NCBI GenBank assembly: GCA_015183035.1
Contig: JACZZP010000014.1
Span: 62,001-126,000, forward strand
Origin: Meloidogyne chitwoodi
Lineage: Eukaryota > Nematoda > Chromadorea > Rhabditida > Meloidogynidae
Reading direction: 5' to 3'
Length of the DNA: 64,000 bases
Positions 3,319 through 57,978 of the stretch are shown one piece after another (position 1 is the stretch's first letter; the number at the start of each line of letters is the position of its first letter). A program made the translations under genes and the position numbers. The notes beneath the pieces are model-generated. The model ran no database searches and had not been told where the DNA came from. It saw only the letters and a list, made by a program, of their open reading frames with translations.

Positions 3319-3797
3319 ACAAGGGAACATCACAACATGCTACTCACCGATTTTGGCAAAACCTATGCAATTCGAAAGAGCTTTTTGAGTAGGTACAGAA
3401 TCCGAATTTTTATGTGCCCTTTTAAGTAATTGTAAAGTTATGAGCATTTAAAATTTCAAAAAAATGTTCCTTATCCTCTTCAAAAGTGTCCCTTTCTCTC
3501 TACTCTTTACTACGGCCTTAAGATCACCTCTCTTCTCTCTTTTCCTTTCCTAGCAGCGGCCGCTCCAAGAAAAAGAAGAGAAGGCAGGGCCTCTGCAAGG
3601 AAAGGACTGGAAAAGAGAGTATAGAAGTGCTCTTAAGTGTGAAGAGCCTCTTTTTTAAAACTTTAAAAGCTTGTAACTTTACAATACATTAAAACGGGTA
3701 CATAAAAATTTGGATTCTGTACGTTCCCAAAAAGCTCTTTCGAATGGTATAGGTTTTGTCAAAATCGGTAAGTAGCATGTTGTGATGTTCCCTTGTG
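3319..3797. mobile_element. Fold-back element with about 150-bp inverted ends
   Basis: The left end starts ACAAGGGAACATCACAACAT and the right end is its reverse complement; diverged complementarity continues for about 150 bp. The centre (3470-3650) is purine/pyrimidine-biased and contains AGCGGCCGCT. The element interrupts the 11-bp-based repeat region. A short piece of the same end (GATGTTCCCTTGT) recurs at about 40255. No reading frame of note; a non-autonomous transposon is inferred. Target-site duplications were not identified. Confidence 0.6.
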
Positions 3798-12800: not shown

Positions 12801-12845
12801 GCTCAATTCAAGCTCATTATAGACATAAATAGAGCTCATATAGAA
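3815..12845. repeat. 44-bp satellite array, about 200 units
   Basis: The monomer is 44 bp and reads as two 22-bp halves that both begin GAGCTCAAAT; each half is two 11-bp pieces. One half continues CATGCTCATCAT, the other AAAGCTCCTTTT or CGAGATCCTTTT. Variants (AGATCAAATCTAGATCC, AAACCTCC) are arranged in blocks that recur. A rare variant (AAAATTATGC) lies at 6431, 8147 and 9643; the gaps of 1716 and 1496 bp are exactly 39 and 34 monomers, so the array grew by copying large blocks. At both edges units degrade (3815-3960 and 11340-12845). Most monomers contain a SacI-type GAGCTC palindrome. Nothing coding is supported. Confidence 0.95.
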
Positions 12846-39364: not shown

Positions 39365-40125
39365 TTGTTTTATGCCCGTAATTCTGGGCTTTTTAATTTT
39401 TTGCCCGTAATTCTGGGCCTTTTAATTTTGCACAAATTTATGTTTTATGCCCGTATATCTGGGCTTTTTAATTTTACACATTTTTATTTGTTTTATGCCC
39501 GTAATTCAGGGCTTTTTAATTTTTTGCACATATTTTTTTTGCCCGTAATTCTGGGCTTTTTTTAATTTTTTGCACTTATTTGTTTTTTGCAAGTAATTCT
39601 GGGCTTTTTAATTTTTTGCACTTAATTGTTTTTTGCCCGTAATTCTGGGCCTTTTTAATTTTTTGCACTTATTTGTTTTTTGCCCGTAATTCTGGGCCTA
39701 TTACTTTTTGCACTTAATTGTTTTTTGCCCGTAATTCTGGGCCTATTAATTTTTGCACATTTTTATGTTTTTTGCCCGTAATTCTGGGACTATTAATTTT
39801 TGCACTTAATTGTTTTTTGCCCGTAATTCTGGGCCTATTAATTTTTGCAATTATTTGTTTTATGCCCGTAATTCTGGGCCTTTTAATTTATGCACATTTT
39901 TAATTTATTGCCCGTAATTCTGGGCCTATTAATTTTTGCACTTAATTGTTTTATGCCCGTAATTCAGGGCTTTTTAATTTTGCACATTTTTATGTTTTTT
40001 GCCCGTATATCTGGGCTTTTTAATTTATTCACATTTCTAATTTATTGCCCGTAATTCTGGGCCTTTTAATTTTTATTTGTTTTATGCCCGTAATTCTGGG
40101 CTTTTTAATTTTATTCACATATTAA
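39365..40125. repeat. 45-bp tandem repeat inside the Polinton left end
   Basis: About 16-17 units of 45-47 bp carry GCCCGTAATTCTGGGC, in which GCCC and GGGC can pair around an 8-nt loop, followed by TTTTTAATTTTTTGCAC. Substitutions in some units (ATTCAGGGC, TATATCTGGGC) leave GCCC and GGGC unchanged. Open frames 39365-39565 and 39718-39903 follow the repeat and are rejected. It lies between the terminal repeat and the first gene. Confidence 0.85.
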
Positions 40126-40339: not shown

Positions 40340-40371
40340 AAGAGCGTTTTTCATTTTAGATTCATTTTAAG

Positions 40372-40845
40372 ATGAACAACAAAAATATTCCTAAAATTTT
40401 ACCAGAAGTTGAGTTTAATATTACCTCTAATGGGATCACTATTTCTAGTGTCCGACTTACAACTCCCCGTTTTATCCCTTATGATCAAGCTGGAAAATGT
40501 ACCAAATGCAAGAGTACAGAAGTAGAATTAGACTTTGTAGTAGTAAAGGAGGGTGTGATTGTTTACTGTACACGCTTTTCAGGGAGTCGCTTCGTTCCTT
40601 TTGATTCATTCTACGATTTACCTGGTCACTGTTTCTTTAAACTGAAGAATAAGGGGCGTGTCTTTAATGTTCCATACAATTCTACACTAAAGACCGAGAT
40701 TCCTGCGCCAATATCAATCGAGAGTGCACCACCACCATCCGAAACGGTTCAACTTCAAGCACATGATTCTCTTCCATCAAAAGAAGTTCTAGATGAATTC
40801 TTCAAGGGCTTAGATGTTTCTTTAACAGGAATTCCAACAGAATGA
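40372..40845 (+). CDS. Polinton protein of unknown function, 157 aa
   Basis: First gene of the rightward cluster, preceded by a TATA box. The sequence is not recognised. The two halves look related: VRLTTPRFIPYD before CTKC and TRFSGSRFVPFD before a GHC, so an internal duplication is likely. The Cys residues (CTKC, C in VYCTRF, GHC) could bind a metal. The C-terminal third is Pro/Ser-rich and acidic. No signal peptide or membrane segment. Position next to the packaging ATPase suggests a virion or assembly role, but this is only context. Confidence 0.7.
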   Translation: MNNKNIPKILPEVEFNITSNGITISSVRLTTPRFIPYDQAGKCTKCKSTEVELDFVVVKEGVIVYCTRFSGSRFVPFDSFYDLPGHCFFKLKNKGRVFNVPYNSTLKTEIPAPISIESAPPPSETVQLQAHDSLPSKEVLDEFFKGLDVSLTGIPTE

Positions 40846-41896: not shown

Positions 41897-42457
41897 ATGG
41901 CAAATAAATTTATTTTAGTTCCAGAAGAGATATACAAAGGGCTTACGACTCATGATACAGGCGAACCAAATATAGATTTTATGCGTACAACACTTGAGAA
42001 AACAAAAAAGAAAAAAGAAACCCCAAGTGAAAAAAATATAAAGTACAATCAGGAGTTGAGAAGATATTTAAAAATGCGTAATGAGCAGCAAAATAGACCT
42101 GTTAGAGTAGAGATGGTAGCTAGTTCTAAAGGTATTACAGCGAGGCCTATTTCAGGAATAGATGAAGAGAATGATGATAACATGTTTATTGATGATAGTT
42201 TTACATCGACATATCTAAATCCTTCCGCTCAAGATATTAAACCTTCTATGTTTCAAGATATTAAATCTTCATCTAGACTTAAACCTATATCTCCAGCTGA
42301 AACTAAAGTTAAAGTTTCAGCATCTAGATGGGGTGTTAGAAAACCCTCAATTGCGGATGTTAACAAACGCAAAGAGAGGCCTATAAAAGAGTTTAAACCT
42401 TCCCTTTGGAAAAGAAATGGTAGATTACACAAAGTTTCTTCAACATCTTTACAATAA
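41897..42457 (+). CDS. Polinton protein of unknown function, 186 aa
   Basis: Starts 7 bp after the preceding gene. The N-terminus (FILVPEEIYKGLTT) and a segment with NQELRRYLKMRNEQQNRPVR resemble a small protein often found just before the Polinton integrase, as far as I recognise it. The middle is acidic, with repeated DIKPSMFQDIKSS, and the C-terminus is basic (WKRNGRLHK). The last 41 bp overlap the integrase start. Function unknown. Confidence 0.65.
   Translation: MANKFILVPEEIYKGLTTHDTGEPNIDFMRTTLEKTKKKKETPSEKNIKYNQELRRYLKMRNEQQNRPVRVEMVASSKGITARPISGIDEENDDNMFIDDSFTSTYLNPSAQDIKPSMFQDIKSSSRLKPISPAETKVKVSASRWGVRKPSIADVNKRKERPIKEFKPSLWKRNGRLHKVSSTSLQ
42382..42389 (+). promoter_or_regulatory. 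TATA box of the integrase gene
   Basis: TATAAAAG lies 35 bp before the ATG at 42417, inside the coding region of the preceding gene. Confidence 0.55.
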
Positions 42458-43493
42458 TCCAGAGTCTCCAGCAGCCTTTTCAGGTGTTGACAGACTGTGG
42501 AAAGAAGCTAGAAAAGAATACAAAAATATACCTAAAAGAATTGTTCAAAACTATTTAGAAGGTCACAGAACATATACCTTAATGCGTCCAAGACGTATTC
42601 ATTTTAAAAGAGCAAAGACTATTCCAGCAGGATTTATGACAGATGTTCAAGTTGATCTTGCAGATTTTCAATCAATATCGCGACATAATAAAGGCAACCG
42701 ATATTTACTTTTAGGTATAGATGTTTTATCTAAAAGAATATTTGGTATACCTGTTAAAACAAAAGGTTCTAATGATATGCTTGAAGGCTTTAAAAAACTT
42801 ATTGATCAAATGCCTATGAAACCTCATAGAATTTTTTCGGATAAGGGTTTAGAGTTTAAAAATAAAGTTGTTAGAGAGTATTTTGAAAAGGAAGAAATAC
42901 ACAAAACTGAACCAAATCACTCTACTGTGAAAGCATCTTTAGCAGAAAGGGCTATACGAAACATTAAACAGAGAATTTATCGATATTTTGCCCAAAATAA
43001 GACCTTGAAATGGATAGATGTCCTTCCAAAAATTATAGAAGGAATAAATAAGGCTAAAAGCAGAGTCCACGGAATGCGACCTATTGATGTTAATTTTGAT
43101 AATGCTCAAGAGATATGGGAGCGAATATATGGTGATCAATTTTCAAAAAAGAAATCAAAACTCAAAAAAGGAGATCATGTACGTATGAGTGTGGGTAAGG
43201 GAGTATTTGAGAAAGGCTACATTCCAAACTGGGGTGATGAAATATTGCAAGTTGAAAGAGTCAAAGATAATGTCCAACCAGTTCTTTACAAAATTAAAGA
43301 TGATAAAGGTGAAAAATTCAAAGGTTCATTCTATGGAGAGGAACTATCCCGTGTTCGTAAAGATGCAGACACAGAATATAGAATTGAAAAAATTGTTCGT
43401 AAAAAGAAAAGAGATGATGGAACATTCGATTTACTTGTAAAATTTATAGGGTATCCTGAAAGAGAATGGATACACGAGACACAACTAGTATAA
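42417..43493 (+). CDS. Polinton retrovirus-like integrase with chromodomain
   Basis: 358 residues. The DDE core is complete: VDLADF (Asp about 79), FSDKGLEF (Asp about 142) and SLAERAIRNIK (Glu about 176). A short basic barrel-like segment follows (KKGDHVRMSVGKG). The last about 40 residues form a chromodomain (YRIEKIVRKK, then LLVKFIGYPEREW). The enzyme joins the element's ends to host DNA; the chromodomain may guide insertion to marked chromatin. It overlaps the 186-aa gene by 41 bp in another frame. All catalytic residues are kept, so the gene may be active. Confidence 0.9.
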   Translation: MVDYTKFLQHLYNNPESPAAFSGVDRLWKEARKEYKNIPKRIVQNYLEGHRTYTLMRPRRIHFKRAKTIPAGFMTDVQVDLADFQSISRHNKGNRYLLLGIDVLSKRIFGIPVKTKGSNDMLEGFKKLIDQMPMKPHRIFSDKGLEFKNKVVREYFEKEEIHKTEPNHSTVKASLAERAIRNIKQRIYRYFAQNKTLKWIDVLPKIIEGINKAKSRVHGMRPIDVNFDNAQEIWERIYGDQFSKKKSKLKKGDHVRMSVGKGVFEKGYIPNWGDEILQVERVKDNVQPVLYKIKDDKGEKFKGSFYGEELSRVRKDADTEYRIEKIVRKKKRDDGTFDLLVKFIGYPEREWIHETQLV

Positions 43494-43497
43494 AAAG
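43489..43497 (+). promoter_or_regulatory. TATA-like box of the penton-like gene
   Basis: TATAAAAAG lies 42 bp before the ATG at 43531 and only 18 bp before the upstream ATG at 43507, supporting the downstream start. It overlaps the stop codon of the integrase gene. Confidence 0.55.
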
Positions 43498-43530
43498 CGT
43501 TATTTATTGTATATTTTTAATTTGATAAAT

Positions 43531-45258
43531 ATGTCTAATACATTTTTTATTTTCCTTCCAAGTAATGTTCCCGATTATTCCGATAATAGACCTAATAAAT
43601 TCAGAGTCCATTTACCAAAACCATTATATTTTTCTGGAGATTGGGTTTGTGGTTTACATAGTATAAGTTATCCATATTCATGGCCTTCAACAATTGGAAC
43701 TTTAGATGAGCAATTTATTGATATTCATTTTCTCGATAATAATGATAAGGCTAGAGTAATTCGTTTACCTGTTCCTAAGGGATCCCACACTTCAGTAGAG
43801 GAATTGCATCAATTTTTAGTATCAACATTAAAACATCAAAGTGATGCTGTTATAGCAAAACCGTTAGAGGAGCCCGAAAAACTAATCGAAAAACCAACTG
43901 TTCGTAAACCAAAACGTAGTGTTAGTCCAGAAGGTGAACTTAGAACCCCATCTCCTATGGAAGATGAAAAACCTGAAGGTGAACTCAGGACTCCATCTCC
44001 TTCATCCTCAGCTGAAGGAGTAACTAAATCTCCAACACCTGAAAAACAGGAACCTCCAAAGAAGAAATTGACACCTGTGCCTCATATATCACCTATTAAG
44101 CCTACTCCTGTAACTCCTATTACCACTCCTCAACCTCCAATAATCACTACTCAACCTCCTATAACCACTACGCAACCTCCAATAACCACTACTCAACCTC
44201 CTATAACCACTACTCACCCTCCAAAAACCACTCCTCAACCTCCGGTAACCACTACTCACCCTCCAATAACCACTCCTCAACCTCCAATAACCACTACGCA
44301 ACCTCCAATAACCACTACTCAACCTCCAATAACAACACCTCAACCTCCTACATCCACTCCTGAACCTCCCAAAACCACTTCACAACCTCATAAACAATCT
44401 CATGAACACTCTAAAATTCCCCCTGAACTACCTAAAACTACATCTGAACAACCTCAGTCCATTATTCTACCATCTTTACCTACTCCTCAATCTCTAAAAA
44501 ACACAACACAACCATCTTTGAGTCCTGAAGGAGAGCTCAGATCTCCATCCCCCATTGAAGAGGAAGACAAAGTTCCATCATCTGTTAATTTACAAGAATC
44601 TTTTCCAAATCTTCCAACCCCTGAAGCAGTCTTTAAAGATCCTATTTGGACAGAAGAAGACGAAATAATTCTAACAAGGATACTAGGTAAAACTCCAAAT
44701 CATTTTCAAAGAATAGCTTATTTACCTAATATGCCAATGCTAAGACTAAAATATGGGAAACTTAAAAAAGATAATATAGACTCATCTGTACAAAAACAAC
44801 TTATCGATTCAATAGAATTAATTTACCTATATGAATTTGAACGATTCAAAGTCACATTCAAACATCCAAAAATAAAATACATTTCGTTTTCTAACCAGCT
44901 TGGCTATGTCTTAGGTTTTGAAAACCCTAATATGGTTCAAAAAAATGAAGTCGCAAAATATGGATGTGACTTACGAGGAGGTTTCTCAAGTTTTGCAGTT
45001 TATTCCAAAGGTCTCACAGAAAATATGATTATAGGTAACTCTCTTAGTTCCCTGCTCCGTGTTGTTTCAGTAGCAGGAGCTGTACCTGGAGAATATTATG
45101 AAAAAATTTATGATTCTCCTATTTACGCAAGAGTCCTACCAAAAGAGGTTAATGAAATTGAGATTGAACTCAGAACTATGGACAATGGTAGACTTGTACC
45201 ATTCGAATTTGGGACTGTCCTGCTAGTCCTTATATTTAAGAAGGTGTTAAATTTCTAA
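43531..45258 (+). CDS. Polinton minor capsid (penton-like) protein with Pro/Thr repeat insert
   Basis: About 575 residues from MSNTFFIFLPSNVPDY. The frame is open from 43507, but the TATA position favours 43531. The N-terminal segment (FRVHLPKPLYFSGDWVCGLH, then SISYPYSW) and the C-terminal half (FSNQLGYVLGF, CDLRGGFSSFAVYSKGL) match the Polinton family usually taken as the penton or minor capsid jelly-roll protein. Between them lies a long insert with SPEGELRTPSP motifs and about 15 PPITTTQ-type repeats (residues about 188-290), unusual for an internal capsid domain and more like a mucin-type exposed stalk. Minus-strand frame 44089-44343 is only the shadow of this repeat. Confidence 0.8.
   Translation: MSNTFFIFLPSNVPDYSDNRPNKFRVHLPKPLYFSGDWVCGLHSISYPYSWPSTIGTLDEQFIDIHFLDNNDKARVIRLPVPKGSHTSVEELHQFLVSTLKHQSDAVIAKPLEEPEKLIEKPTVRKPKRSVSPEGELRTPSPMEDEKPEGELRTPSPSSSAEGVTKSPTPEKQEPPKKKLTPVPHISPIKPTPVTPITTPQPPIITTQPPITTTQPPITTTQPPITTTHPPKTTPQPPVTTTHPPITTPQPPITTTQPPITTTQPPITTPQPPTSTPEPPKTTSQPHKQSHEHSKIPPELPKTTSEQPQSIILPSLPTPQSLKNTTQPSLSPEGELRSPSPIEEEDKVPSSVNLQESFPNLPTPEAVFKDPIWTEEDEIILTRILGKTPNHFQRIAYLPNMPMLRLKYGKLKKDNIDSSVQKQLIDSIELIYLYEFERFKVTFKHPKIKYISFSNQLGYVLGFENPNMVQKNEVAKYGCDLRGGFSSFAVYSKGLTENMIIGNSLSSLLRVVSVAGAVPGEYYEKIYDSPIYARVLPKEVNEIEIELRTMDNGRLVPFEFGTVLLVLIFKKVLNF
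45231..45240 (+). promoter_or_regulatory. TATA-like motif before the pVI-like gene
   Basis: TATATTTAAG lies 43 bp before the ATG at 45274. It is a weak match but at the same distance as the other Polinton promoters. Confidence 0.35.
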
Positions 45259-45711: not shown

Positions 45712-45714
45712 AAA

Positions 45715-47040
45715 ATGACATTTCATAAAATTGATCGTGATAGTATAAATTCTATTACAAATGCCTTAGATTTTTTTCAAGTTCCCCCAACTAATGTAAG
45801 CATTTCCTCATCAAAAGTTTTTGAAATATTGACAAATAACCCTTTAACAGATACTCCATTTCATTTCAAAATTCATAGTAGTCAAGACTATATTGATCTT
45901 TCAAAGGTATACCTTTTTACAGAATTTCGCATAAGAAAGGAAGATGCAGATGGAAAACTCATAAATTTGGTTGCAACAGATAGTGTTGTACCTATACAAC
46001 TAATTGGTCAAACTTTTATAAATAATATGAGAATTAATGTAAATGGTAGAGAAATTTTTAATTCAAATTCTCTTTATGCTTATAAAACATACTTTTCACA
46101 TGAACTTTCATATTCTATAGGAGCAAAAAATTCCCATTTAAATGCTGCAGGATATTATTATGATTCTGACACAAATCTAGAGGGTGGTAATGCTTTTAAT
46201 TCAAGAAAACAATTATTTGAAAAAAGTAAGACAGCCCAATTTATTTCAAAACTCGATGCTGATATATTTAATCAACCACTATATCTAATTAATCATTGCG
46301 AAATTGATATTGAAATCCTCCCAAATGAATCAAAATTTGTATTGATAGCACCCCCTGTTAACAATGTTCCTCAAACTACAACTTATCATTTTGAAGTTGT
46401 AAACTGTAAAATGTATGTAAAAAAGATTGACATTATGGATGGACTCTCACTAGACATTGCAAGAAAACTTGAAACTAAACCTGCACGTTATGCTATAAGA
46501 AAAACTATGATGAAACCTTTGTTCATAAGCCAAGGTCGGTATGAATTTAATGCAAATTTATTCATGGATCAAATTCCACGAAGAGTTACATTAGGATTAG
46601 TTGCAAATGCAGACTATGTAGGGAAATTTGATCGAAGTCCCTTCAACTTTCAACATTTTAATGTAAGAGAAGTTAGTATAATAGCTAATGGGAGACCTTA
46701 CCCTCAGGCTCCATATGACTTTGATTATAAAAATGGGAGATATGTTCGGGCATTTCATGATATGAATGAAGCTACGGGTCTGACAAATTCTTCAGAAAAT
46801 AATGGAATAACTTATCAACAATATGGAAAAACACATTGTATCTATGTTTTCAATTTAACAAATAGTGGAGAGGACAATAGCGGAACATTTGACTTAATCA
46901 AAAACGGAACAACTGCTGTAAATATTAAATTTAGTCAACCCGTTCCAGAAGGCGGAGCTATGCTCATTGTGATGGGTGAGACGGATTCCCTTATAATGCT
47001 CGATAAAAACCGGACTATAGCCAGTGACACAACCATTTAG
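45715..47040 (+). CDS. Polinton major capsid protein (double jelly-roll)
   Basis: 441 residues. The text matches the family of Polinton major capsid proteins that is annotated in animals as F54H12.2-like: YIDLSKVYLFTEFRI near the start, VVPIQLIGQTFINNMRINVN, then SYSIGAKNSHLNAAGYYYD. The length fits a double jelly-roll capsid subunit without large inserts. It stands in the centre of the morphogenesis cluster, after the penton-like and pVI-like genes and before the protease. A TATAAAAAG motif is found 49 bp upstream (45666). The gene is intact. Confidence 0.88.
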   Translation: MTFHKIDRDSINSITNALDFFQVPPTNVSISSSKVFEILTNNPLTDTPFHFKIHSSQDYIDLSKVYLFTEFRIRKEDADGKLINLVATDSVVPIQLIGQTFINNMRINVNGREIFNSNSLYAYKTYFSHELSYSIGAKNSHLNAAGYYYDSDTNLEGGNAFNSRKQLFEKSKTAQFISKLDADIFNQPLYLINHCEIDIEILPNESKFVLIAPPVNNVPQTTTYHFEVVNCKMYVKKIDIMDGLSLDIARKLETKPARYAIRKTMMKPLFISQGRYEFNANLFMDQIPRRVTLGLVANADYVGKFDRSPFNFQHFNVREVSIIANGRPYPQAPYDFDYKNGRYVRAFHDMNEATGLTNSSENNGITYQQYGKTHCIYVFNLTNSGEDNSGTFDLIKNGTTAVNIKFSQPVPEGGAMLIVMGETDSLIMLDKNRTIASDTTI

Positions 47041-47045
47041 AAAAA

Positions 47046-47486
47046 ATGAAAAATATTTTAGTTTCTATATTTTTAATTCGCATATTCGCTCCATGTGTTG
47101 GACTTACAACGTATGGAAATGATGTAAATTTAGAAAAGATTCCCGAGTATTCAGAATATTTACGTCAGTTGGGATACCCAAAGAAAAATTCAACAGCTGA
47201 AAGAATTTCAGCTCCAAGTCCCCCAATAATATCTCTTCCAGCAATTGAACTTTGTAAGAATGGACCTCCGGATGATAGTTTATACGGCCATATATTTTGT
47301 TGGGGGATGATTGGTTTATATATTATGTTAATTGCTAGTTTAATTATTTATCAACTTCGTTCAGTTTTTTGGCTAAAAACAAATATTCCTAAAAATAATA
47401 ATAATAATGTACAGCACTCAAATTACGAAAATATTGAGCTCCAACCTAGAAACGAGCAAAATCTTCCAAGGGTGCTTTCCATGTAA
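47046..47486 (+). CDS. Polinton single-pass membrane protein, 146 aa
   Basis: Starts 5 bp after the capsid gene. A signal peptide (residues 1-19, ILVSIFLIRIFAPCVG) is followed by a short outer region of about 60 residues with one Cys (ELCKNG), a transmembrane segment at about 84-104 (WGMIGLYIMLIASLIIYQL) and a cytosolic tail rich in Asn. It is too short for the large fusion proteins known from some nematode Mavericks. It might mark a step at a membrane during particle entry or exit, but there is no direct evidence. Its last 80 bp overlap the protease gene. Confidence 0.7.
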   Translation: MKNILVSIFLIRIFAPCVGLTTYGNDVNLEKIPEYSEYLRQLGYPKKNSTAERISAPSPPIISLPAIELCKNGPPDDSLYGHIFCWGMIGLYIMLIASLIIYQLRSVFWLKTNIPKNNNNNVQHSNYENIELQPRNEQNLPRVLSM

Positions 47487-47847
47487 TAATTTACCAAAGC
47501 CTGTGAAAGGTAAAGCTTTAATTGTAAACCTAGATCCTCAAGGATATGAAGGCTCACATTGGATTGCAATTTATGTTCAAAAGATTGATGAAATAATTTA
47601 TTTTGATAGTTTAAACCTTCCCACTAGTATTTGTATTATAGACTCATTTTTAAAAAATTTTAAAATTGTTACAAGAAATTTAAGAGAATACCAATCCCCA
47701 AACTCTAATTATTGTGCCCATTATTGTATTTCTTTTATTTATTTCATTTCAAAAAGTTATACATTTCCCCAATACCTTAATTTATTAAATAAAAATCAAA
47801 ACTCAGATTTATTTGTAAAAAATATTGTTAATAAAATGATTAAATAA
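47407..47847 (+). CDS. Polinton adenovirus-type cysteine protease
   Basis: 146 residues. Catalytic elements of the adenain/Ulp1 fold are seen in order: GSHWIAIYV (His about 50), IYFDSLNLP (Asp about 66) and SPNSNYCAHYCISF (Cys about 102 in the YCAHYC box). The short length suits adenain-like rather than full Ulp1 enzymes. The N-terminal part overlaps the membrane-protein gene in another frame; the ATG at 47407 is the first of the frame. It would mature precursors at Gly-Gly sites such as those in the two small basic proteins of this element. Confidence 0.85.
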   Translation: MYSTQITKILSSNLETSKIFQGCFPCNNLPKPVKGKALIVNLDPQGYEGSHWIAIYVQKIDEIIYFDSLNLPTSICIIDSFLKNFKIVTRNLREYQSPNSNYCAHYCISFIYFISKSYTFPQYLNLLNKNQNSDLFVKNIVNKMIK

Positions 47848-47897: not shown

Positions 47898-48304
47898 TTA
47901 ATCCTCTTTCTTGGTTTCAGCTTGTTTTTTCCCATCCCATTCGCATAAAATATCATTTATATACATATTCTTCTTGATGCAAATAGTACACAAATCAAAA
48001 CTAACATTAATTTTTCCATCAACCTCCTCAGAGAACTTATTCTTTTTATGATAAAGAGCATTTGCACACTGTTTACAAAGACGAAATTCGATTCTAGGAA
48101 GATATTTCATTCTGACAAGTTTCCACAAAACCTTGGAGTTAATACCATTTTTCTTTTCAATCTTGCCTTTAACGATTGTCTGATCAATGTTATTTTTCAG
48201 TTTAGATTTTTTCTCATTATTTTCAAATGTAACCTCGATTATTTCTTCGCCAATTTTTTGTTATTTACCAAATGATTTTCTGGTATAGTATTTAATTTAG
48301 TCAT
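47898..48304 (-). pseudogene. Small two-CxxC Polinton protein, frameshifted
   Basis: A minus-strand frame ends at 47898 and contains CKQC and CTIC about 30 residues apart, with a Lys-rich start and end, so one zinc site is plausible. The frame that holds the motifs has no ATG before an internal one (48128); upstream sequence in the same style continues to an ATG at 48304 but in another frame. The break falls at or near a run of six T (plus strand 48254-48259). It may be a real frameshift or a homopolymer error. The gene converges on the protease gene. No family is recognised. Confidence 0.55.
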
Positions 48305-48367
48305 TTTTATTAAAAGTATTATTTTAATGGCTCAAGAGGGAAATTTGAGCAAGATACTCTTGAACTG

Positions 48368-51300
48368 ATGGAACAGATTGGAGCACCTTTTGACCAAAAT
48401 GAATATGATGCAGAGGATTGGGTTCCTCCAATAGTGGACCATTGGAATGAGCAATATGAAGGCCAGTTTATTTTCAAAGTTTTTATGTTTGACTGCTTGG
48501 GACACTACAAACCTTGTTTTAAATATGGCCCTAATAACTATAATTCACCTTTGCTTCTTTACTTTGACGGCTCCCATTTCAACGGGGTATCTTGCACTGG
48601 AGGGCTCTTTGGGCAGTCTTACTGTTTAGAATGTGAGACAATTTATGATAGGCCAAAACAACACTCTGTATCATGTCGAGCACGATGTTTAAACTGCTCC
48701 CGAGTTGGTCCACTATATCCATGCCAACCAAGAAACAAATTTTACAAAAAATGCAGCAATTGCTTTAAGAAATTCAACAACGAAGACTGTTTTATTTTTC
48801 ATTTAAATTCTAATTTCTGCAAAAATTCAAAAAAATGCGAAAAATGTGGAGTAGTATGGGACGTCAAGGATAATAATAGAAATGGAAGAAAAGGCCATGC
48901 TTGTAATGAGAAATACTGCAAGACGTGTGGAGGATATCATGAAACCAAAAGAGGATGCTTTGTTAAACCATTGGAGATCAAGGAGCAAAAACCATATAGA
49001 ATTGTAGCTTTTGATCTTGAAACAACGCAACACTTAACTACAAACAACAACAAAAGAAAACATCAAGTCAATTTTGTTGCAGCAAGAGTAACTTGCCCCA
49101 AATGCATAAATGATGAGCAAATTGAATGTAAAATTTGCGGAAACAACCGACTCATTACATTTTCTGAACGGCCGTTCACAAAAACGAACGTTGTTAACAA
49201 AAATATATCAGAAGAACCGCTTGTTTCCTTCGTCAAGTGGATTATTGAAACAACAAAGGAATTTGATACAATAGCCTTCTCTCATTACGGAGGAAAGTTC
49301 GACATGGTTATTGTCTTCAAAGAGTTATTTCTTCTAGGTTTTACACCTGAAATGTTAAAAAGAGGAAATAAAATGTATGAGATGAAGGTGCGCATTGGAA
49401 AGAAGAGCATGTTAATTTTTAGAGATAGCTTTAATATTATGCCAATGTCTTTGGCATCATTGGTTCGAGCATTTGCTCTTAAGGTTGAGGATAAACCGTT
49501 CTTTCCTCACCTCTCAAACCATCCAAAGAATTATGGAAAAGAAATATACCCCTCTCCATCTGAATATTTTGCGGATGGGATGATGCCTGAAAAGAGAAAA
49601 GAATTTGACCAATGGTACTCACAGAACAAAGAACAACCATTTCTGCTTGATGAGGCCTTAGCTTCTTATTGCACAAATGATGTGGAAATATTATTAGCTG
49701 CATTAATTGCATTTCGAAAAGAATTTATGGACGTTACAAAGCGATCAAATGGTGAAAGACCTGCTTCAGTTAAAGCTCATGATGGGATAGATGTTCTAAG
49801 AGAGTCAATGACCATTGCGTCTGCATGTATGAATCATTTTAGAACAAATCACTTGAAGGAAAATCACTTGGCTCTTGTTCCAGAGAAGGGGTATGACAAT
49901 GCTGATAATCAAAGCAAATTAGCTCTGAAATTTATGAAATGGTACGAAGAGGAGCATGGAGTAACAATTCAAAATGCATATTCAAAAGGAGGAGAGAAAA
50001 AAGTGGGCAATTATAAGTTGGATGGGTGGATAGAGGAGGAGAAGCTTGGGATAGAAGTTAATGGGTGTGCATGGCACGGGTGCGAGAGATGCTATCCTGA
50101 AAACAACATAATGCTCCCAAATGGAGTAACTGCGGGAAAGCAGAGAGAAAAAGATGAAATTCGACTACAATTTATCAAAAGTCAGGGAATAAATGTTCAA
50201 GTCTTTTGGGAGTGTGAAATAAGAAAAATGTTGGATAAAGATAGAGAAATGAGGAACAAATTTAAAAATTATCTGGACAACGGGCCTATTGATATCCGCT
50301 CTTCTTTCTTTGGAGGACGGACTGGCCCACTGCGTCTCTTTTACAAACCAAGGGATCGTGAGAAGATTTCATACTATGATGTCACTTCCCTCTACCCATT
50401 TATTAATGTGACAACAAAGTATCCAATTGGTCACCCAGAAGTACATATTCTGAACAAAGACGTCAAATGGATTAGGCCTGAAGACAACACTTATGAATTG
50501 GCAATTTTGAAAGTGTTTGTTATACCACCAAGGAGTATAGATGTACCTGTGCTCCCAATGAAGATTGGAGAGGATGATGAAAGACTTCTCTTCCCACTCT
50601 GCTCCAAATGCGCGAGAGAGCACCCAGAAGGGGATGTGAATGAAAAATACTCATGTCCTCATTCAGATGAACAAAGAGGATGGCTGAGTACCTGCACCTC
50701 AATTGAGCTCAATGTTGCTCTTGAGGAAGGATATAGAGTGACAAAGCTCTTCCGAGTATTAGAATACAAGGAATCGGACAACAAATTATTTGCTCCCTAC
50801 ATTATTGAATTTATGGCAGCAAAAATCCATTCTTCAGGATTTGATATCTCCGTCAAAGGAAAATATGAGGAGGAGGAGAAATTTATTAAAGAATGTAAAC
50901 AAAAGTTTGGAATATCTATTGAAAGAAGTAAAATGGGCCCAAATAAAGGAAAAAGAACTCAGGCAAAGTTAATGCTCAACAATTTGTGGGGGAGATTCTC
51001 CTTAAGAAATGACGGGCTTTTTCAATGTGCTATAACAGACAACCCTGCTGAACTTAGGCGACACATGGATGACCATTCCGTTGATATTAAAGCATTGGAT
51101 GAACTTGCTCCTGGTATTATGCTCATCACATACATCAAGAAGAAGGATTGGATCGAGGAGCATGCGTCGTCAAATGTGGTCATTTCACTTTGGACGACAT
51201 CAGCTGCACGTATACATTTGCTCAGAGCAATGCAAAAAGTCGTCAGAACTCCTGGATGCAAGCTTCTCTACACTGACACGGATTCACTGATATTCTCTCA

Positions 51301-51754
51301 TCCGCAACTGAATTGTCCATTACAGCTAGGATCTCATTTAGGGGAATTTACAGATGAATATCCCTCACATGAAATTATGGAGTACACCTGTGGAGGAGCT
51401 AAACAGTACGGGCTCAAATTGAGACGGAAGGAGCAGCATGTAGCAGCTGACTATGAGTACGTGTTAAAAGTTAGAGGAATGACCCTCAACTTCGACGTGA
51501 TCGAAAATCAGGGACTCCGTTATGACACATTCAAGGATCAGGTACTATCTTATGCAAAAACAGGAGAGTTAAATCCTATTGATATTTTATATCCCAATTT
51601 TTTGAGACCATCTATTAAAGATGGCTGTGTTACCTCTCAACCCCTTCATAAAATGTATAAACCAGTTGTATGTAAAGGGGTTATCCGCCCTTCTGATTTT
51701 ATTGTATTAAATTTTGGCCATTTAAATAATAAACATCCTCTTATATTAATATGA
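48368..51754 (+). pseudogene. Truncated second copy of Polinton DNA polymerase B
   Basis: 1128 residues identical to the C-terminal part of the complete gene at 53884-57978. The inverted duplication starts at codon 223 of the full gene, so the N-terminal 236 residues before the first ATG here, including the putative OTU Cys region, are absent. All exonuclease and polymerase motifs remain. The first ATG (MEQIGAPF) has no known promoter. A shortened enzyme might still be made; loss of the N-terminus and a foreign upstream region make normal function doubtful. Confidence 0.8.
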
Positions 51755-52130
51755 TTTCATAAGGAGATGGAAAGTAGTCAGGGGTACAGATCCTCCAACC
51801 TTATACCAACCATGTTATCGATGATTACCAACATGAGCTATTCTTATGTTGTGAGGTCGTTCCCTCATTGAATTTCAATGAATATCAACATGTGTTAGCC
51901 ATATGTTGTGGGGCAATCCTCTCATTGAATGTGGTCGCGGACTTGAGTAAATTCTCAAGTCCCTGGTCGGGTTGGAGGAGATGTCGAATGACGAAGCCAA
52001 GCTCCTTCCATATTAATATTTTTCATAGAGGTTTTATTAAACTTATAAGCCAAACTCATTCCCTATCACTATAATTATTATTACTCATAATGTAAATAAT
52101 GTATTCAAAATAAAAATTTTAATAATAAAA
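51755..52130. other. Structured non-coding stretch downstream of the truncated polymerase
   Basis: Two imperfect copies of a 57-bp unit (starting AACATGAGC at 51830 and AACATGTGTT at 51887) each hold ATGTTGTG and CTCATTGAAT. Short hairpins are possible, for example ACTTGAG with CTCAAGT near 51940-51960. The frame 51868-52074 (68 codons) is not supported. The same stretch is mirrored at 53508-53883. It may be a 3' RNA structure or origin-linked signal; unproven. Confidence 0.4.
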
Positions 52131-52445
52131 ATGTCTATTTTTAAAAATCTGTATTACAGAATTAACAAAAGTTAATACAAGTTTTTAGGGGTAAAAATAC
52201 AGAATTAAGGAAAAGGAGCTTAATTTTATAATATTAAAAGACAAAATTAAGGACAAACTACAGAGTTAACAAAAGTTAATACAAGGTTTTAGGGGTAAAA
52301 AAGGCAGAATTAAGAAAAACAAGTTAAAATTTAAAAATTTTATTTACAAAATTAAAAAGTATTTACAAAATTAGTAATAGTTTGTATTCAATTTTAGGGG
52401 TAAAATTGCAGAATTAAGAAAATATTTGTAAAAATTCATCATTTT
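52131..52445. repeat. Degenerate tandem repeat, left arm
   Basis: Three diverged units share TTTTAGGGGTAAAA, CAGAATTAAG and GTTAATACAAG. The mirrored copy is at 53193-53507. The repeat separates the polymerase end from the PAZ-like fragment. Confidence 0.7.
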
Positions 52446-52481
52446 TGTCATATGTGTGTGCGCATGTATATAGATGGCACA

Positions 52482-52812
52482 CTACCAGTCATCTTGGCTA
52501 AAATCTCCTCTGTACACTTCCATCTCATCCTCAAGATTCTTATCCATAATAATTTCAGGACTATCAGGAGGTGAAAATTTGGCTTTGCTTGAAAAACTTG
52601 AAGATAAACTTGTAATTTTCTCTGCTTCCTCATCAACAAATTCTAATAGCTCGATAGGATAGAAACGATCTTTCTGATATGGTCGTCGATCGATTACACA
52701 ATTTAGATATGGATAACGAAGTTGAATACGATGACGAGTGTAAAAATGTTGAGCAATACTAACATTATATGGACGTCTGAGATGTCCATAGGCACGAATT
52801 TTATTTTTGGAG
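52482..52812 (-). pseudogene. PAZ-like fragment, closed left copy
   Basis: Mirror copy of the PAZ-like sequence at 52832-53156, read outward from the palindrome centre on the minus strand. The frame is open to its stop at 52482, but upstream across the spacer it meets a TGA within a few codons, and no ATG precedes the PAZ-like part. So this copy cannot be translated as the right copy can. Confidence 0.65.
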
Positions 52813-53156
52813 GTATTTCAAGAAAAAGTGCAAATAAAATTCGCGCCTATGGACATCTCAGACGTCCATATAATGTTAGTATTGCTCAACATTTTTACAC
52901 TCGTCATCGTATTCAACTTCGTTATCCATATCTAAATTGTGTAATCGATCGACGACCATATCAGAAAGATCGTTTCTATCCTATCGAGCTATTAGAATTT
53001 GTTGATGAGGAAGCAGAGAAAATTACAAGTTTATCTTCAAGTTTTTCAAGCAAAGCCAAATTTTCACCTCCTGATAGTCCTGAAATTATTATGGATAAGA
53101 ATCTTGAGGATGAGATGGAAGTGTACAGAGGAGATTTTAGCCAAGATGACTGGTAG
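52722..53156 (+). CDS. Argonaute PAZ-domain-like fragment in the Polinton
   Basis: A 144-codon frame spans the palindrome centre. The first about 37 residues come from the antisense side of the left arm and the spacer. From NKIRAYGHLRRPYNVSIAQH on it resembles the second half of an Argonaute PAZ domain: SIAQHFYTRHRIQLRYPYLN followed by CVIDRRP and then FYPIELLEFV, matching the usual pattern of V-x2-YF, Y-x-I-x-L-x-YP-x-LPC and YxPxEL. The end is acidic and Ser-rich (SLSSSFSSKAKFSPPDSP). The MID and PIWI domains are absent. The gene converges on the complete polymerase gene. The natural N-terminus was lost at the palindrome centre, so the present frame may be chance or a reduced product. Host capture is inferred. 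Confidence 0.6.
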   Translation: MNTMTSVKMLSNTNIIWTSEMSIGTNFIFGGISRKSANKIRAYGHLRRPYNVSIAQHFYTRHRIQLRYPYLNCVIDRRPYQKDRFYPIELLEFVDEEAEKITSLSSSFSSKAKFSPPDSPEIIMDKNLEDEMEVYRGDFSQDDW

Positions 53157-53192
53157 TGTGCCATCTATATACATGCGCACACACATATGACA

Positions 53193-53507
53193 AAAATGAT
53201 GAATTTTTACAAATATTTTCTTAATTCTGCAATTTTACCCCTAAAATTGAATACAAACTATTACTAATTTTGTAAATACTTTTTAATTTTGTAAATAAAA
53301 TTTTTAAATTTTAACTTGTTTTTCTTAATTCTGCCTTTTTTACCCCTAAAACCTTGTATTAACTTTTGTTAACTCTGTAGTTTGTCCTTAATTTTGTCTT
53401 TTAATATTATAAAATTAAGCTCCTTTTCCTTAATTCTGTATTTTTACCCCTAAAAACTTGTATTAACTTTTGTTAATTCTGTAATACAGATTTTTAAAAA
53501 TAGACAT
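53193..53507. repeat. Degenerate tandem repeat, right arm
   Basis: Mirror image of 52131-52445, with units ending in TTTTACCCCTAAAA. No coding content. Confidence 0.7.
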
Positions 53508-53883
53508 TTTTATTATTAAAATTTTTATTTTGAATACATTATTTACATTATGAGTAATAATAATTATAGTGATAGGGAATGAGTTTGGCTTATAAGTTTA
53601 ATAAAACCTCTATGAAAAATATTAATATGGAAGGAGCTTGGCTTCGTCATTCGACATCTCCTCCAACCCGACCAGGGACTTGAGAATTTACTCAAGTCCG
53701 CGACCACATTCAATGAGAGGATTGCCCCACAACATATGGCTAACACATGTTGATATTCATTGAAATTCAATGAGGGAACGACCTCACAACATAAGAATAG
53801 CTCATGTTGGTAATCATCGATAACATGGTTGGTATAAGGTTGGAGGATCTGTACCCCTGACTACTTTCCATCTCCTTATGAAA
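53508..53883. other. Structured non-coding stretch downstream of the complete polymerase
   Basis: Mirror image of 51755-52130, directly after the stop of the complete polymerase gene on the minus strand. The frame 53564-53770 is the mirror of the one rejected in the left arm. Confidence 0.4.
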
Positions 53884-56800
53884 TCATATTAATATAAGAG
53901 GATGTTTATTATTTAAATGGCCAAAATTTAATACAATAAAATCAGAAGGGCGGATAACCCCTTTACATACAACTGGTTTATACATTTTATGAAGGGGTTG
54001 AGAGGTAACACAGCCATCTTTAATAGATGGTCTCAAAAAATTGGGATATAAAATATCAATAGGATTTAACTCTCCTGTTTTTGCATAAGATAGTACCTGA
54101 TCCTTGAATGTGTCATAACGGAGTCCCTGATTTTCGATCACGTCGAAGTTGAGGGTCATTCCTCTAACTTTTAACACGTACTCATAGTCAGCTGCTACAT
54201 GCTGCTCCTTCCGTCTCAATTTGAGCCCGTACTGTTTAGCTCCTCCACAGGTGTACTCCATAATTTCATGTGAGGGATATTCATCTGTAAATTCCCCTAA
54301 ATGAGATCCTAGCTGTAATGGACAATTCAGTTGCGGATGAGAGAATATCAGTGAATCCGTGTCAGTGTAGAGAAGCTTGCATCCAGGAGTTCTGACGACT
54401 TTTTGCATTGCTCTGAGCAAATGTATACGTGCAGCTGATGTCGTCCAAAGTGAAATGACCACATTTGACGACGCATGCTCCTCGATCCAATCCTTCTTCT
54501 TGATGTATGTGATGAGCATAATACCAGGAGCAAGTTCATCCAATGCTTTAATATCAACGGAATGGTCATCCATGTGTCGCCTAAGTTCAGCAGGGTTGTC
54601 TGTTATAGCACATTGAAAAAGCCCGTCATTTCTTAAGGAGAATCTCCCCCACAAATTGTTGAGCATTAACTTTGCCTGAGTTCTTTTTCCTTTATTTGGG
54701 CCCATTTTACTTCTTTCAATAGATATTCCAAACTTTTGTTTACATTCTTTAATAAATTTCTCCTCCTCCTCATATTTTCCTTTGACGGAGATATCAAATC
54801 CTGAAGAATGGATTTTTGCTGCCATAAATTCAATAATGTAGGGAGCAAATAATTTGTTGTCCGATTCCTTGTATTCTAATACTCGGAAGAGCTTTGTCAC
54901 TCTATATCCTTCCTCAAGAGCAACATTGAGCTCAATTGAGGTGCAGGTACTCAGCCATCCTCTTTGTTCATCTGAATGAGGACATGAGTATTTTTCATTC
55001 ACATCCCCTTCTGGGTGCTCTCTCGCGCATTTGGAGCAGAGTGGGAAGAGAAGTCTTTCATCATCCTCTCCAATCTTCATTGGGAGCACAGGTACATCTA
55101 TACTCCTTGGTGGTATAACAAACACTTTCAAAATTGCCAATTCATAAGTGTTGTCTTCAGGCCTAATCCATTTGACGTCTTTGTTCAGAATATGTACTTC
55201 TGGGTGACCAATTGGATACTTTGTTGTCACATTAATAAATGGGTAGAGGGAAGTGACATCATAGTATGAAATCTTCTCACGATCCCTTGGTTTGTAAAAG
55301 AGACGCAGTGGGCCAGTCCGTCCTCCAAAGAAAGAAGAGCGGATATCAATAGGCCCGTTGTCCAGATAATTTTTAAATTTGTTCCTCATTTCTCTATCTT
55401 TATCCAACATTTTTCTTATTTCACACTCCCAAAAGACTTGAACATTTATTCCCTGACTTTTGATAAATTGTAGTCGAATTTCATCTTTTTCTCTCTGCTT
55501 TCCCGCAGTTACTCCATTTGGGAGCATTATGTTGTTTTCAGGATAGCATCTCTCGCACCCGTGCCATGCACACCCATTAACTTCTATCCCAAGCTTCTCC
55601 TCCTCTATCCACCCATCCAACTTATAATTGCCCACTTTTTTCTCTCCTCCTTTTGAATATGCATTTTGAATTGTTACTCCATGCTCCTCTTCGTACCATT
55701 TCATAAATTTCAGAGCTAATTTGCTTTGATTATCAGCATTGTCATACCCCTTCTCTGGAACAAGAGCCAAGTGATTTTCCTTCAAGTGATTTGTTCTAAA
55801 ATGATTCATACATGCAGACGCAATGGTCATTGACTCTCTTAGAACATCTATCCCATCATGAGCTTTAACTGAAGCAGGTCTTTCACCATTTGATCGCTTT
55901 GTAACGTCCATAAATTCTTTTCGAAATGCAATTAATGCAGCTAATAATATTTCCACATCATTTGTGCAATAAGAAGCTAAGGCCTCATCAAGCAGAAATG
56001 GTTGTTCTTTGTTCTGTGAGTACCATTGGTCAAATTCTTTTCTCTTTTCAGGCATCATCCCATCCGCAAAATATTCAGATGGAGAGGGGTATATTTCTTT
56101 TCCATAATTCTTTGGATGGTTTGAGAGGTGAGGAAAGAACGGTTTATCCTCAACCTTAAGAGCAAATGCTCGAACCAATGATGCCAAAGACATTGGCATA
56201 ATATTAAAGCTATCTCTAAAAATTAACATGCTCTTCTTTCCAATGCGCACCTTCATCTCATACATTTTATTTCCTCTTTTTAACATTTCAGGTGTAAAAC
56301 CTAGAAGAAATAACTCTTTGAAGACAATAACCATGTCGAACTTTCCTCCGTAATGAGAGAAGGCTATTGTATCAAATTCCTTTGTTGTTTCAATAATCCA
56401 CTTGACGAAGGAAACAAGCGGTTCTTCTGATATATTTTTGTTAACAACGTTCGTTTTTGTGAACGGCCGTTCAGAAAATGTAATGAGTCGGTTGTTTCCG
56501 CAAATTTTACATTCAATTTGCTCATCATTTATGCATTTGGGGCAAGTTACTCTTGCTGCAACAAAATTGACTTGATGTTTTCTTTTGTTGTTGTTTGTAG
56601 TTAAGTGTTGCGTTGTTTCAAGATCAAAAGCTACAATTCTATATGGTTTTTGCTCCTTGATCTCCAATGGTTTAACAAAGCATCCTCTTTTGGTTTCATG
56701 ATATCCTCCACACGTCTTGCAGTATTTCTCATTACAAGCATGGCCTTTTCTTCCATTTCTATTATTATCCTTGACGTCCCATACTACTCCACATTTTTCG

Positions 56801-57978
56801 CATTTTTTTGAATTTTTGCAGAAATTAGAATTTAAATGAAAAATAAAACAGTCTTCGTTGTTGAATTTCTTAAAGCAATTGCTGCATTTTTTGTAAAATT
56901 TGTTTCTTGGTTGGCATGGATATAGTGGACCAACTCGGGAGCAGTTTAAACATCGTGCTCGACATGATACAGAGTGTTGTTTTGGCCTATCATAAATTGT
57001 CTCACATTCTAAACAGTAAGACTGCCCAAAGAGCCCTCCAGTGCAAGATACCCCGTTGAAATGGGAGCCGTCAAAGTAAAGAAGCAAAGGTGAATTATAG
57101 TTATTAGGGCCATATTTAAAACAAGGTTTGTAGTGTCCCAAGCAGTCAAACATAAAAACTTTGAAAATAAACTGGCCTTCATATTGCTCATTCCAATGGT
57201 CCACTATTGGAGGAACCCAATCCTCTGCATCATATTCATTTTGGTCAAAAGGTGCTCCAATCTGTTCCATCAGTTCAAGAGTATCTTGCTCAAATTTCCC
57301 TCTTGAGCCATACCTCCCGTGAATATAGTTGTAATATTGGGAGCGTGATAAATTTCCGATGAAGCGGATCATTGTTGCGATTAAAGCATAAAATAGACAA
57401 TAACCGTTGTTGTTGTTATTAATCTTTATCAAATTTTTAGTTTTAATTTGATGATGAACAGGAGCAAGTTTCCTAGGTGCTCCTCCTATAATATTGTTCC
57501 CTCTCGGTAAACTTGACTTATTAACAACCATAACATTAATTGAAAAAGGTTTTCCCCATAAAGTTAAACCTGCCTGTTTCTTGCTTTGCGCTACTTTATT
57601 GAACTGATTCAACATTGAGTCAAATGTGTTTTGAGTTGTTGGGCGTACAGGTATCCAAATATCAGATTCAAGCAATTCAGATGTAAGAGTACATCCTAAC
57701 TCTTCTGGCTCAATTCCTTTATTGCGAGCATTAGATGTTGCTTCATCAAAACAATACTGAAAAATACCTGAAAGAAGTGCTTCAGGATCTGTAGGAATAT
57801 TTTTTATAAGGAATTTTGAATAAGATTTAATAAGTTTAAATTTATCATTATGTTGTATGGATTCATCCAATTTTTCAACATATTCTTTGGGAGATGCTCC
57901 CTCTCCTACTTGATTAATTTCTAGGAGATTATCGATAAAAAATGAACGTTGTCGTTTGGTTGGAGGCTGATAAGTCAT
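53884..57978 (-). CDS. Polinton protein-primed DNA polymerase B, complete
   Basis: 1364 residues. Near residue 194, GYCLFYAL, and later SHFNGV, resemble the Cys and His boxes of an OTU-like domain known from polymerase N-termini of some Polintons. A Cys-rich zinc region follows (CLEC, CRARCLNC, CEKCG, CKTCGG). Exonuclease motifs are FDLETT (about 450), GGKFDM (about 543) and YCTND (about 669). Polymerase motifs are YDVTSLYPF (A, about 904), NNLWGRF (B, about 1107) and YTDTDSL (C, about 1203). Between them, GIEVNGCAWHGCERCYP is characteristic of the Polinton group. The enzyme would copy the element from its protein-primed ends. It is transcribed leftward, toward the palindrome centre. The ATG at 57978 is the first of the frame and the gene is uninterrupted. 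Confidence 0.93.
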   Translation of the reverse strand: MTYQPPTKRQRSFFIDNLLEINQVGEGASPKEYVEKLDESIQHNDKFKLIKSYSKFLIKNIPTDPEALLSGIFQYCFDEATSNARNKGIEPEELGCTLTSELLESDIWIPVRPTTQNTFDSMLNQFNKVAQSKKQAGLTLWGKPFSINVMVVNKSSLPRGNNIIGGAPRKLAPVHHQIKTKNLIKINNNNNGYCLFYALIATMIRFIGNLSRSQYYNYIHGRYGSRGKFEQDTLELMEQIGAPFDQNEYDAEDWVPPIVDHWNEQYEGQFIFKVFMFDCLGHYKPCFKYGPNNYNSPLLLYFDGSHFNGVSCTGGLFGQSYCLECETIYDRPKQHSVSCRARCLNCSRVGPLYPCQPRNKFYKKCSNCFKKFNNEDCFIFHLNSNFCKNSKKCEKCGVVWDVKDNNRNGRKGHACNEKYCKTCGGYHETKRGCFVKPLEIKEQKPYRIVAFDLETTQHLTTNNNKRKHQVNFVAARVTCPKCINDEQIECKICGNNRLITFSERPFTKTNVVNKNISEEPLVSFVKWIIETTKEFDTIAFSHYGGKFDMVIVFKELFLLGFTPEMLKRGNKMYEMKVRIGKKSMLIFRDSFNIMPMSLASLVRAFALKVEDKPFFPHLSNHPKNYGKEIYPSPSEYFADGMMPEKRKEFDQWYSQNKEQPFLLDEALASYCTNDVEILLAALIAFRKEFMDVTKRSNGERPASVKAHDGIDVLRESMTIASACMNHFRTNHLKENHLALVPEKGYDNADNQSKLALKFMKWYEEEHGVTIQNAYSKGGEKKVGNYKLDGWIEEEKLGIEVNGCAWHGCERCYPENNIMLPNGVTAGKQREKDEIRLQFIKSQGINVQVFWECEIRKMLDKDREMRNKFKNYLDNGPIDIRSSFFGGRTGPLRLFYKPRDREKISYYDVTSLYPFINVTTKYPIGHPEVHILNKDVKWIRPEDNTYELAILKVFVIPPRSIDVPVLPMKIGEDDERLLFPLCSKCAREHPEGDVNEKYSCPHSDEQRGWLSTCTSIELNVALEEGYRVTKLFRVLEYKESDNKLFAPYIIEFMAAKIHSSGFDISVKGKYEEEEKFIKECKQKFGISIERSKMGPNKGKRTQAKLMLNNLWGRFSLRNDGLFQCAITDNPAELRRHMDDHSVDIKALDELAPGIMLITYIKKKDWIEEHASSNVVISLWTTSAARIHLLRAMQKVVRTPGCKLLYTDTDSLIFSHPQLNCPLQLGSHLGEFTDEYPSHEIMEYTCGGAKQYGLKLRRKEQHVAADYEYVLKVRGMTLNFDVIENQGLRYDTFKDQVLSYAKTGELNPIDILYPNFLRPSIKDGCVTSQPLHKMYKPVVCKGVIRPSDFIVLNFGHLNNKHPLILI

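Follow-up and report, generated by a model that had tools for sequence, protein, structure and literature searches.

A truncated PAZ gene at the center of a Polinton palindrome

The window analyzed here is a stretch of 64,000 nucleotides (nt) of Meloidogyne chitwoodi DNA (bases 62001 to 126000 of contig 6 of a 47.5-Mb assembly; G+C content in the window, 30.6%) that holds, at 40.4 to 58 kb, a Polinton with genes for an ATPase, an integrase, a structural-type block, a protease-like protein, and a family-B DNA polymerase. An earlier note on this DNA had described, at the center of a palindrome in the element, a frame matching the second half of the PAZ domain of Argonaute proteins, and this frame of 144 amino acids (aa) is present at positions 52722 to 53156 of the plus strand. 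We found that Polintons of this root-knot nematode carry a PAZ-only gene as a regular, constrained part and, because the gene is whole in other Polintons, that the copy in the window is a damaged, truncated member of a real full-length gene family.

In a search with the Pfam PAZ profile, the frame scored 28.5 bits (E = 1.7e-6) over profile positions 42 to 117 of 123, which agrees with the second half of the domain; for this truncated frame, the score lies just below the curated PF02170 cut-off of 28.8 bits. The top match of the frame among PDB sequences is the Argonaute 1 PAZ chain 1r4k (E = 1.3e-5), and PAZ is the only Pfam match within it, so the reported lack of MID and PIWI domains holds. 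The extent of the frame was only partly right, since sense coding for PAZ begins at about position 52797 while the first ~25 codons are antisense of the mirror arm. The palindrome itself is real in the assembly, with the flagged frame at its center. Its center cuts away the 5' side of the gene, the first third of which would have been taken by a fold-back rearrangement, and the mirrored copy is, as had been said, closed by a stop upstream of the codons that it keeps. The features at the center are as follows.

52797 to 53156, plus strand: 3' part of the PAZ-only gene, codons 55 to 173 followed by a stop (95.8% over 119 aa by tblastn with the intact 173-codon frame of locus L007; Pfam PAZ, 28.5 bits)
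52485 to 52811, minus strand: mirror copy of the PAZ 3' part in the inverted arm, codons 65 to 173 (tblastn, 95.4% over 109 aa)
48327 to 52806, no strand: left arm of the palindrome, 4,480 nt, 100% complementary to 52832 to 57311
52832 to 57311, no strand: right arm of the palindrome, 4,480 nt, separated from the left arm by a 25-nt spacer

Intact PAZ-only genes accompany Polintons

A genome search with the window frame gave 60 matches in 49 separate places, at least 12 of which are weak (E = 1e-4 to 0.013); the 11 left uncounted repeat the same palindromic loci in a second frame, in antisense, or as fragments. Forty-eight of the 49 places are linked to Polintons, of which 29 (the window included) were read in the DNA sequence and 19 were placed by coordinates alone. 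Forty-one places lie within 20 kb of the integrase or of open reading frame 442 (ORF442), a conserved structural-type block gene that served as element marker, and such surroundings make up 4.8% of the genome. Of the remaining eight, seven have the polymerase or further genes of a Polinton beside them (two each on contigs 12 and 26, and one each on contig 25, on contig 28, and in the mirror copy on contig 6), and the 49th, at position 1693649 of contig 28, belongs to a host Argonaute, whose PIWI match lies at a distance of 1.4 kb. All 20 of the PAZ loci examined have Polinton genes in the same 10 kb, with polymerase sequence within 2 kb of PAZ in 17. A Pfam PAZ scan of the genome found 20 Polinton-linked places above the cut-off, and none of 14 further Pfam PAZ places is within 20 kb of a Polinton marker, while 10 of them are accompanied by a PIWI match no more than a few kilobases away. 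With dozens of Polinton-linked places, we rejected, for the family, both a fragment confined to this locus and an assembly chimera with a host Argonaute gene, which together would have undone the earlier claim.

Seen from the elements, a PAZ place lies 15 kb or less from 42 of the 54 ORF442 places. The 54 ORF442 places are what is left of 62 matches after removal of 8 second pieces, and the 70 integrase matches likewise reduce to 54 once 9 second pieces and 7 matches that are weak or short are taken out. The PAZ, ORF442, and integrase counts are lower bounds, as the searches score the best candidates only, and linkage is judged by closeness, so that the PAZ gene of a neighboring element may be credited (contigs 8 and 28).

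The unbroken version that had been sought in other Polintons of the same genome exists, for example, at L009, where a 172-aa frame with a Met one residue past the upstream stop matches profile positions 20 to 117 with 33.4 bits, above the cut-off of 28.8. Among 22 full-size frames (L009 to L028), 20 have a Met at or ahead of the domain and stay open to the end, at 166 to 204 aa; the exceptions are L020, which lacks an early Met, and L028, which is cut at its start. The suggestion of a captured, now broken, piece of a host Argonaute therefore describes the window copy, which the palindrome broke, but is wrong for the family. The PAZ frames that were read end 8 to 77 residues past the domain, and Pfam found no nuclease or guide-loading domain in family members. 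No PIWI domain was found in the same gene: the 38 PIWI matches listed are all more than 30 kb from the Polinton-linked PAZ places, the two lists being compared by eye.

The PAZ-only protein is under purifying selection

We estimated ratios of nonsynonymous to synonymous substitution rates (dN/dS) for 14 pairs of copies chosen by hand from 16 frames. By the Nei-Gojobori method, dN/dS is 0.13 to 0.41 in 13 of the 14 pairs, the 14th being saturated, and in the four pairs with dS below 0.3 it is 0.14 to 0.26; YN00 gave 0.06 to 0.25 (4 of the 14 pairs). Thus, the PAZ-only protein is under constraint.

Types, relatives, and origin of the gene

The ORF442 proteins fall into groups with 70 to 100%, 54 to 58%, 38 to 39%, and 32 to 34% identity to that of the window, and PAZ places lie beside all four; we named the PAZ types A, B, C, and D after these groups, in that order. 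Type C is known here solely from frames that are split as if by an intron and match weakly (E = 0.003 to 0.009 by frame search, stronger by profile). Type C and D genes at L040 (506 to 1199), L042 (321 to 651), and L044 (113 to 710) show an apparent short-intron split at nearly the same site, while no intron interrupts the PAZ genes of L025 and L026. The idea that a shared intron proves a common origin of types C and D was dropped, the introns being 5 nt apart.

Three protein searches found 29 relatives, and all 20 of those with a species name are from Meloidogyne (M. enterolobii, M. graminicola, M. incognita, and M. hapla); these searches demand shared five-residue words and similar length, so that distant relatives in other genera may escape. 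A scan of IMG/VR gave 46 pattern matches and no relatives, and Foldseek against viral models returned nothing at an E value of 0.001 or less, which does not demonstrate absence.

A maximum-likelihood tree separates 22 PAZ-only sequences (types A, B, and D) from 7 host PAZ sequences by a single branch (87/86; 90% of 200 bootstrap trees). The phylogeny with host Argonautes that the earlier note had proposed thus sets the PAZ-only sequences apart, but the branches of the host sequences are long, and where they attach is uncertain; the rows of the tree are part of the copies, with host loci L032, L035, and L036 and further Argonautes left out. Within this tree, type A is joined by proteins of M. 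enterolobii and M. graminicola, and type B by one of M. graminicola. The nearest host relative by profile is the Argonaute on contig 28, at 44.9 bits, with the other fetched host loci at 20.3 or less, all of these scores being lowered by having been taken exon by exon. A Dicer-type PAZ domain as the source was rejected, since all 27 PDB sequences matched by profile are Argonautes. The PAZ-only genes likely stem from a single capture from a nematode Argonaute, and genes may have been exchanged between Polinton lineages.

Pocket, charge, and tail of the PAZ-only proteins

The proteins show the PAZ fold as defined by PF02170. At positions of the human AGO2 3'-end pocket, transferred by hand from the profile alignment, H316 is kept in 17 of 17 sequences, R315 in 14 of 17, and an aromatic residue at Y338 in 16 of 17. 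The PAZ-only core is basic, more so than five host PAZ domains. The tails of type-A proteins carry a net charge of -4 to -15, and all 13 type-A proteins compared have a C-terminal Trp, 6 of them ending in GW; each of the two type-B tails contains three Trp residues.

The Polinton of the window and its fold-back

The other genes of the window Polinton are as follows.

40360 to 40845, plus strand: ORF161, a Polinton gene with homologues in L022 and L023
40864 to 41538, plus strand: packaging-type ATPase (Adeno_IVa2, 26.5 bits, cut-off 21; Pox_A32, 23.1 bits, cut-off 22.8)
42387 to 43493, plus strand: retrovirus-like integrase (rve, E = 2.5e-5, 24.9 bits, below the cut-off of 32.6; 70 matches genome-wide)
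43489 to 45258, plus strand: ORF589, an open reading frame of the structural-type block
45712 to 47040, plus strand: ORF442, the conserved structural-type block gene and element marker (62 genome matches)
47377 to 47847, plus strand: adenovirus-endoprotease-like gene (Peptidase_C5, E = 0.0058, below the cut-off)
47901 to 48260, minus strand: ORF120, a small protein with paired Cys motifs (homologue in 7 of the 20 PAZ loci and in L043)
48314 to 51754, plus strand: mirror copy of the polymerase, without the first 228 residues of the stop-to-stop frame (DNA_pol_B_2, 134 bits, E = 9.1e-39)
53884 to 57978, minus strand: Polinton family-B DNA polymerase, full open reading frame of 1,364 aa

The family-B polymerase is of the organellar/viral type (DNA_pol_B_2, 134 bits) and the packaging ATPase exceeds the cut-offs of both its profiles; the earlier note was right that the PAZ fragment is carried by a Polinton. 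As to a double jelly-roll major capsid protein, Pfam and PDB sequence searches gave no convincing match for ORF589 and, for ORF442, no Pfam match above the cut-off and no PDB sequence match. Directly ahead of the first Polinton gene, at 39397 to 40112, is a 46-nt tandem array that is possibly at or near the element end. Elsewhere in the window, a tandem array at 3923 to 12817 has a period of 44 nt (two 22-nt halves) and ~202 copies.

The part of the window Polinton that is folded back is the polymerase end, and head-to-head derivatives of this end recur, with spacers of 19 to 25 nt. At L010 (contig 12; 1794 to 10000), the arms are at least 4,094 nt long and 100% complementary around a 19-nt spacer; at L011 (contig 26; 6188 to 7144), they are 469 nt long and 93% complementary, also around 19 nt. 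The L010 and L011 junctions are identical at 95 of 95 nt, while an ungapped comparison of 1,200 nt around them has 513 mismatches, the copies drifting out of register outward. The presence of the same junction on two contigs makes inheritance likelier than a random chimerism of reads. That both kinds of junction fall inside the PAZ gene does not imply a site preference, because the loci came from a PAZ query. The window junction (52.4 to 53.2 kb) is found again in an inverted copy on contig 6 at 135179 to 138847 (135 to 139 kb), which matches the mirror of the window at 3,432 of 3,432 bases in each of two overlapping loci; around its mirror center, this copy is not palindromic (506 of 1,416 bases). 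A further inverted pair in the window (20616 to 22794 and 26614 to 28792) has arms of 2,179 nt that are 100% complementary and 3,819 nt apart.

Proposed function of the PAZ-only protein

Since the protein lacks MID and PIWI domains, neither slicing nor guide loading is expected of it, which leaves the holding of 3' ends or protein contacts. We lean toward the reading that this protein, probably captured a single time from an Argonaute of a nematode and since maintained by selection in the Polinton lineages of this genome, binds small-RNA 3' ends and weakens host silencing. The free, strongly basic domain would bind host small-RNA 3' ends, either the overhangs of small interfering RNA duplexes or single-stranded guides; the bound RNAs would be kept from Argonautes, or masked, and silencing of element transcripts would thereby be weakened. 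In the commonest type, the acidic tail, whose C-terminal Trp is constant, may serve to dock the protein to Argonaute or a different partner. Such a decoy role, which the earlier note had raised, is plausible and in keeping with the fold, the basic core, the purifying selection, and the conservation of several pocket positions, and the binding of small-RNA 3' ends would blunt host RNA interference (RNAi). A wider form of this proposal, to which we give slightly less than even credence, is that Polintons of root-knot nematodes took the Argonaute 3'-end module once as a general small-RNA sponge or cap that suppresses RNAi and kept it across groups whose structural-block gene is only a third identical.

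At L012, the PAZ protein (47%, compared with the intact L007 protein) is the least conserved at the locus; the other genes, compared with the window element, are at 82 to 83% (polymerase), 78% (ORF442), 57 to 65% (ORF150), 61% (protease), 58% (ORF152), and 54% (ORF589, 270 aa). Such low conservation would be in keeping with a conflict between the gene and the host, but exchange from element to element could have the same effect.

Several observations weigh against a selected, RNA-end-binding suppressor. The dN/dS values of nine pairs are rough, because their dS exceeds 0.9. PAZ is not the fastest gene everywhere, since at L025 it is no less conserved (41% over 73 aa) than pieces of the polymerase (30 to 46%) and of ORF442 (32 to 39%). 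Two AGO2 residues reported as 3'-end contacts are changed, H271 to Tyr in 15 of 17 sequences and Y311 to His in 13 of 17. Type D has neither a long tail nor a terminal Trp, so a function of the tail cannot be general. Finally, PAZ is missing within 15 kb of 12 of the 54 ORF442 places, which points either to a dispensable gene or to damage in those copies.

Two rivals are strongest, a binder of nucleic acid ends in replication and an inhibitor that binds Argonaute. In the former, which we consider unlikely but the best of the alternatives, PAZ would bind free 3' ends of DNA or RNA belonging to the element itself in protein-primed replication or packaging and have no anti-RNAi role. The polymerase sequence close to PAZ in 17 of 20 loci, the presence of the gene beside very diverged element groups, and the basic core would all fit; DNA also binds the AGO2 PAZ domain, as reported in the excerpted text of PMC6361761. 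A replication core gene should not, however, be less conserved than the polymerase, integrase, and ORF442, as PAZ is at L012, nor be missing near 12 of 54 ORF442 places. Protein-primed replication is, to our knowledge, general to Polintons, whereas all 20 named PAZ relatives are from Meloidogyne.

Somewhat less probable still is an inhibitor of Argonaute or Dicer that acts by protein contacts through the C-terminal Trp and acidic tail, with PAZ reduced to a scaffold that has lost its hold on RNA ends. The Trp in 13 of 13 type-A tails (6 in GW), which in its acidic setting presumably resembles GW hooks, the three Trp residues per type-B tail (n = 2), the charge of -4 to -15, and the changes of H271 to Tyr and Y311 to His are what such a protein might show, but type D lacks such a tail, and a His at the AGO2 H316 position in 17 of 17 sequences would be needless were RNA binding lost. 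That PAZ steers host small RNAs at competing Polintons or other viruses, as in superinfection exclusion, is improbable: many diverged Polintons do share this genome, but Pfam finds no nuclease or guide-loading domain in members. The least credible alternative, a functionless captured or broken host Argonaute piece or an assembly chimera, takes its support from the truncated window copy within a 100% palindrome, a structure that chimeric reads can yield, and is refuted for the family by 48 Polinton-linked places with open frames under purifying selection, homologues in four named Meloidogyne species, and another fold-back junction identical over 95 nt on two contigs.

Relation to known systems and significance

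The Polinton proteins share with Argonaute PAZ domains (PF02170; human AGO2 and Drosophila Ago1) the profile, the fold, and several 3'-end pocket positions, but they stand alone without MID or PIWI, are more basic than five host PAZ domains, are changed at H271 and Y311 in most members, and, in type A, have a long acidic tail with a terminal Trp. Tombusvirus p19 is a viral RNAi suppressor that binds small RNA, and the working proposed here, holding RNA that silencing needs, would be the same. Such viral suppressors are not known to share the PAZ fold; the Polinton module, whose suppression is putative, looks taken from the silencing machinery itself. A comparable working would be that of the RNAi suppressor of the DNA virus IIV-6, which binds double-stranded or small RNA according to the excerpted text of PMC4231766. 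VANC proteins of Arabidopsis VANDAL elements are described as sequence-specific anti-silencing proteins (PMC10398659, in excerpt) and are likewise mobile-element proteins directed against the silencing of their own element; PAZ is not mentioned in that excerpt.

Nematode Maverick/Polinton cargo described in the excerpt of PMC10680173 comprises wosp proteases, krma kinases, and a putative fusogen. PAZ is similarly an extra gene beside the Polinton core, but the cargo named in that excerpt includes no PAZ or RNAi protein, and PAZ was found in Meloidogyne only, near 42 of 54 ORF442 places. Mavericks of M. incognita are reported to be expressed and polymorphic (PMC8288018, in excerpt), and Argonautes have been identified by combined Piwi, PAZ, and AGO1 domains (PMC5934874, in excerpt). 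As the earlier note supposed, PAZ in Polintons was reported by none of the literature matches listed (Polinton/Maverick with PAZ/Argonaute, viral suppressors with PAZ, nematode Mavericks, and Meloidogyne Argonautes), these being open-licence papers, so that a report could be missed; nor is the gene described among the matches listed for stand-alone PAZ proteins and for transposon-encoded silencing suppressors. As far as these searches show, these are the first stand-alone PAZ proteins of a virus-like element.

The finding bears on how large animal DNA transposons survive small-RNA defense, since the PAZ-only gene, conserved in dozens of Polintons, makes a direct and testable candidate for a protein that counters silencing and is built from a part of the silencing machinery. 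If the proposed function is true, the protein would be a natural minimal PAZ reagent and would account for the Meloidogyne database entries named merely "PAZ domain-containing protein."
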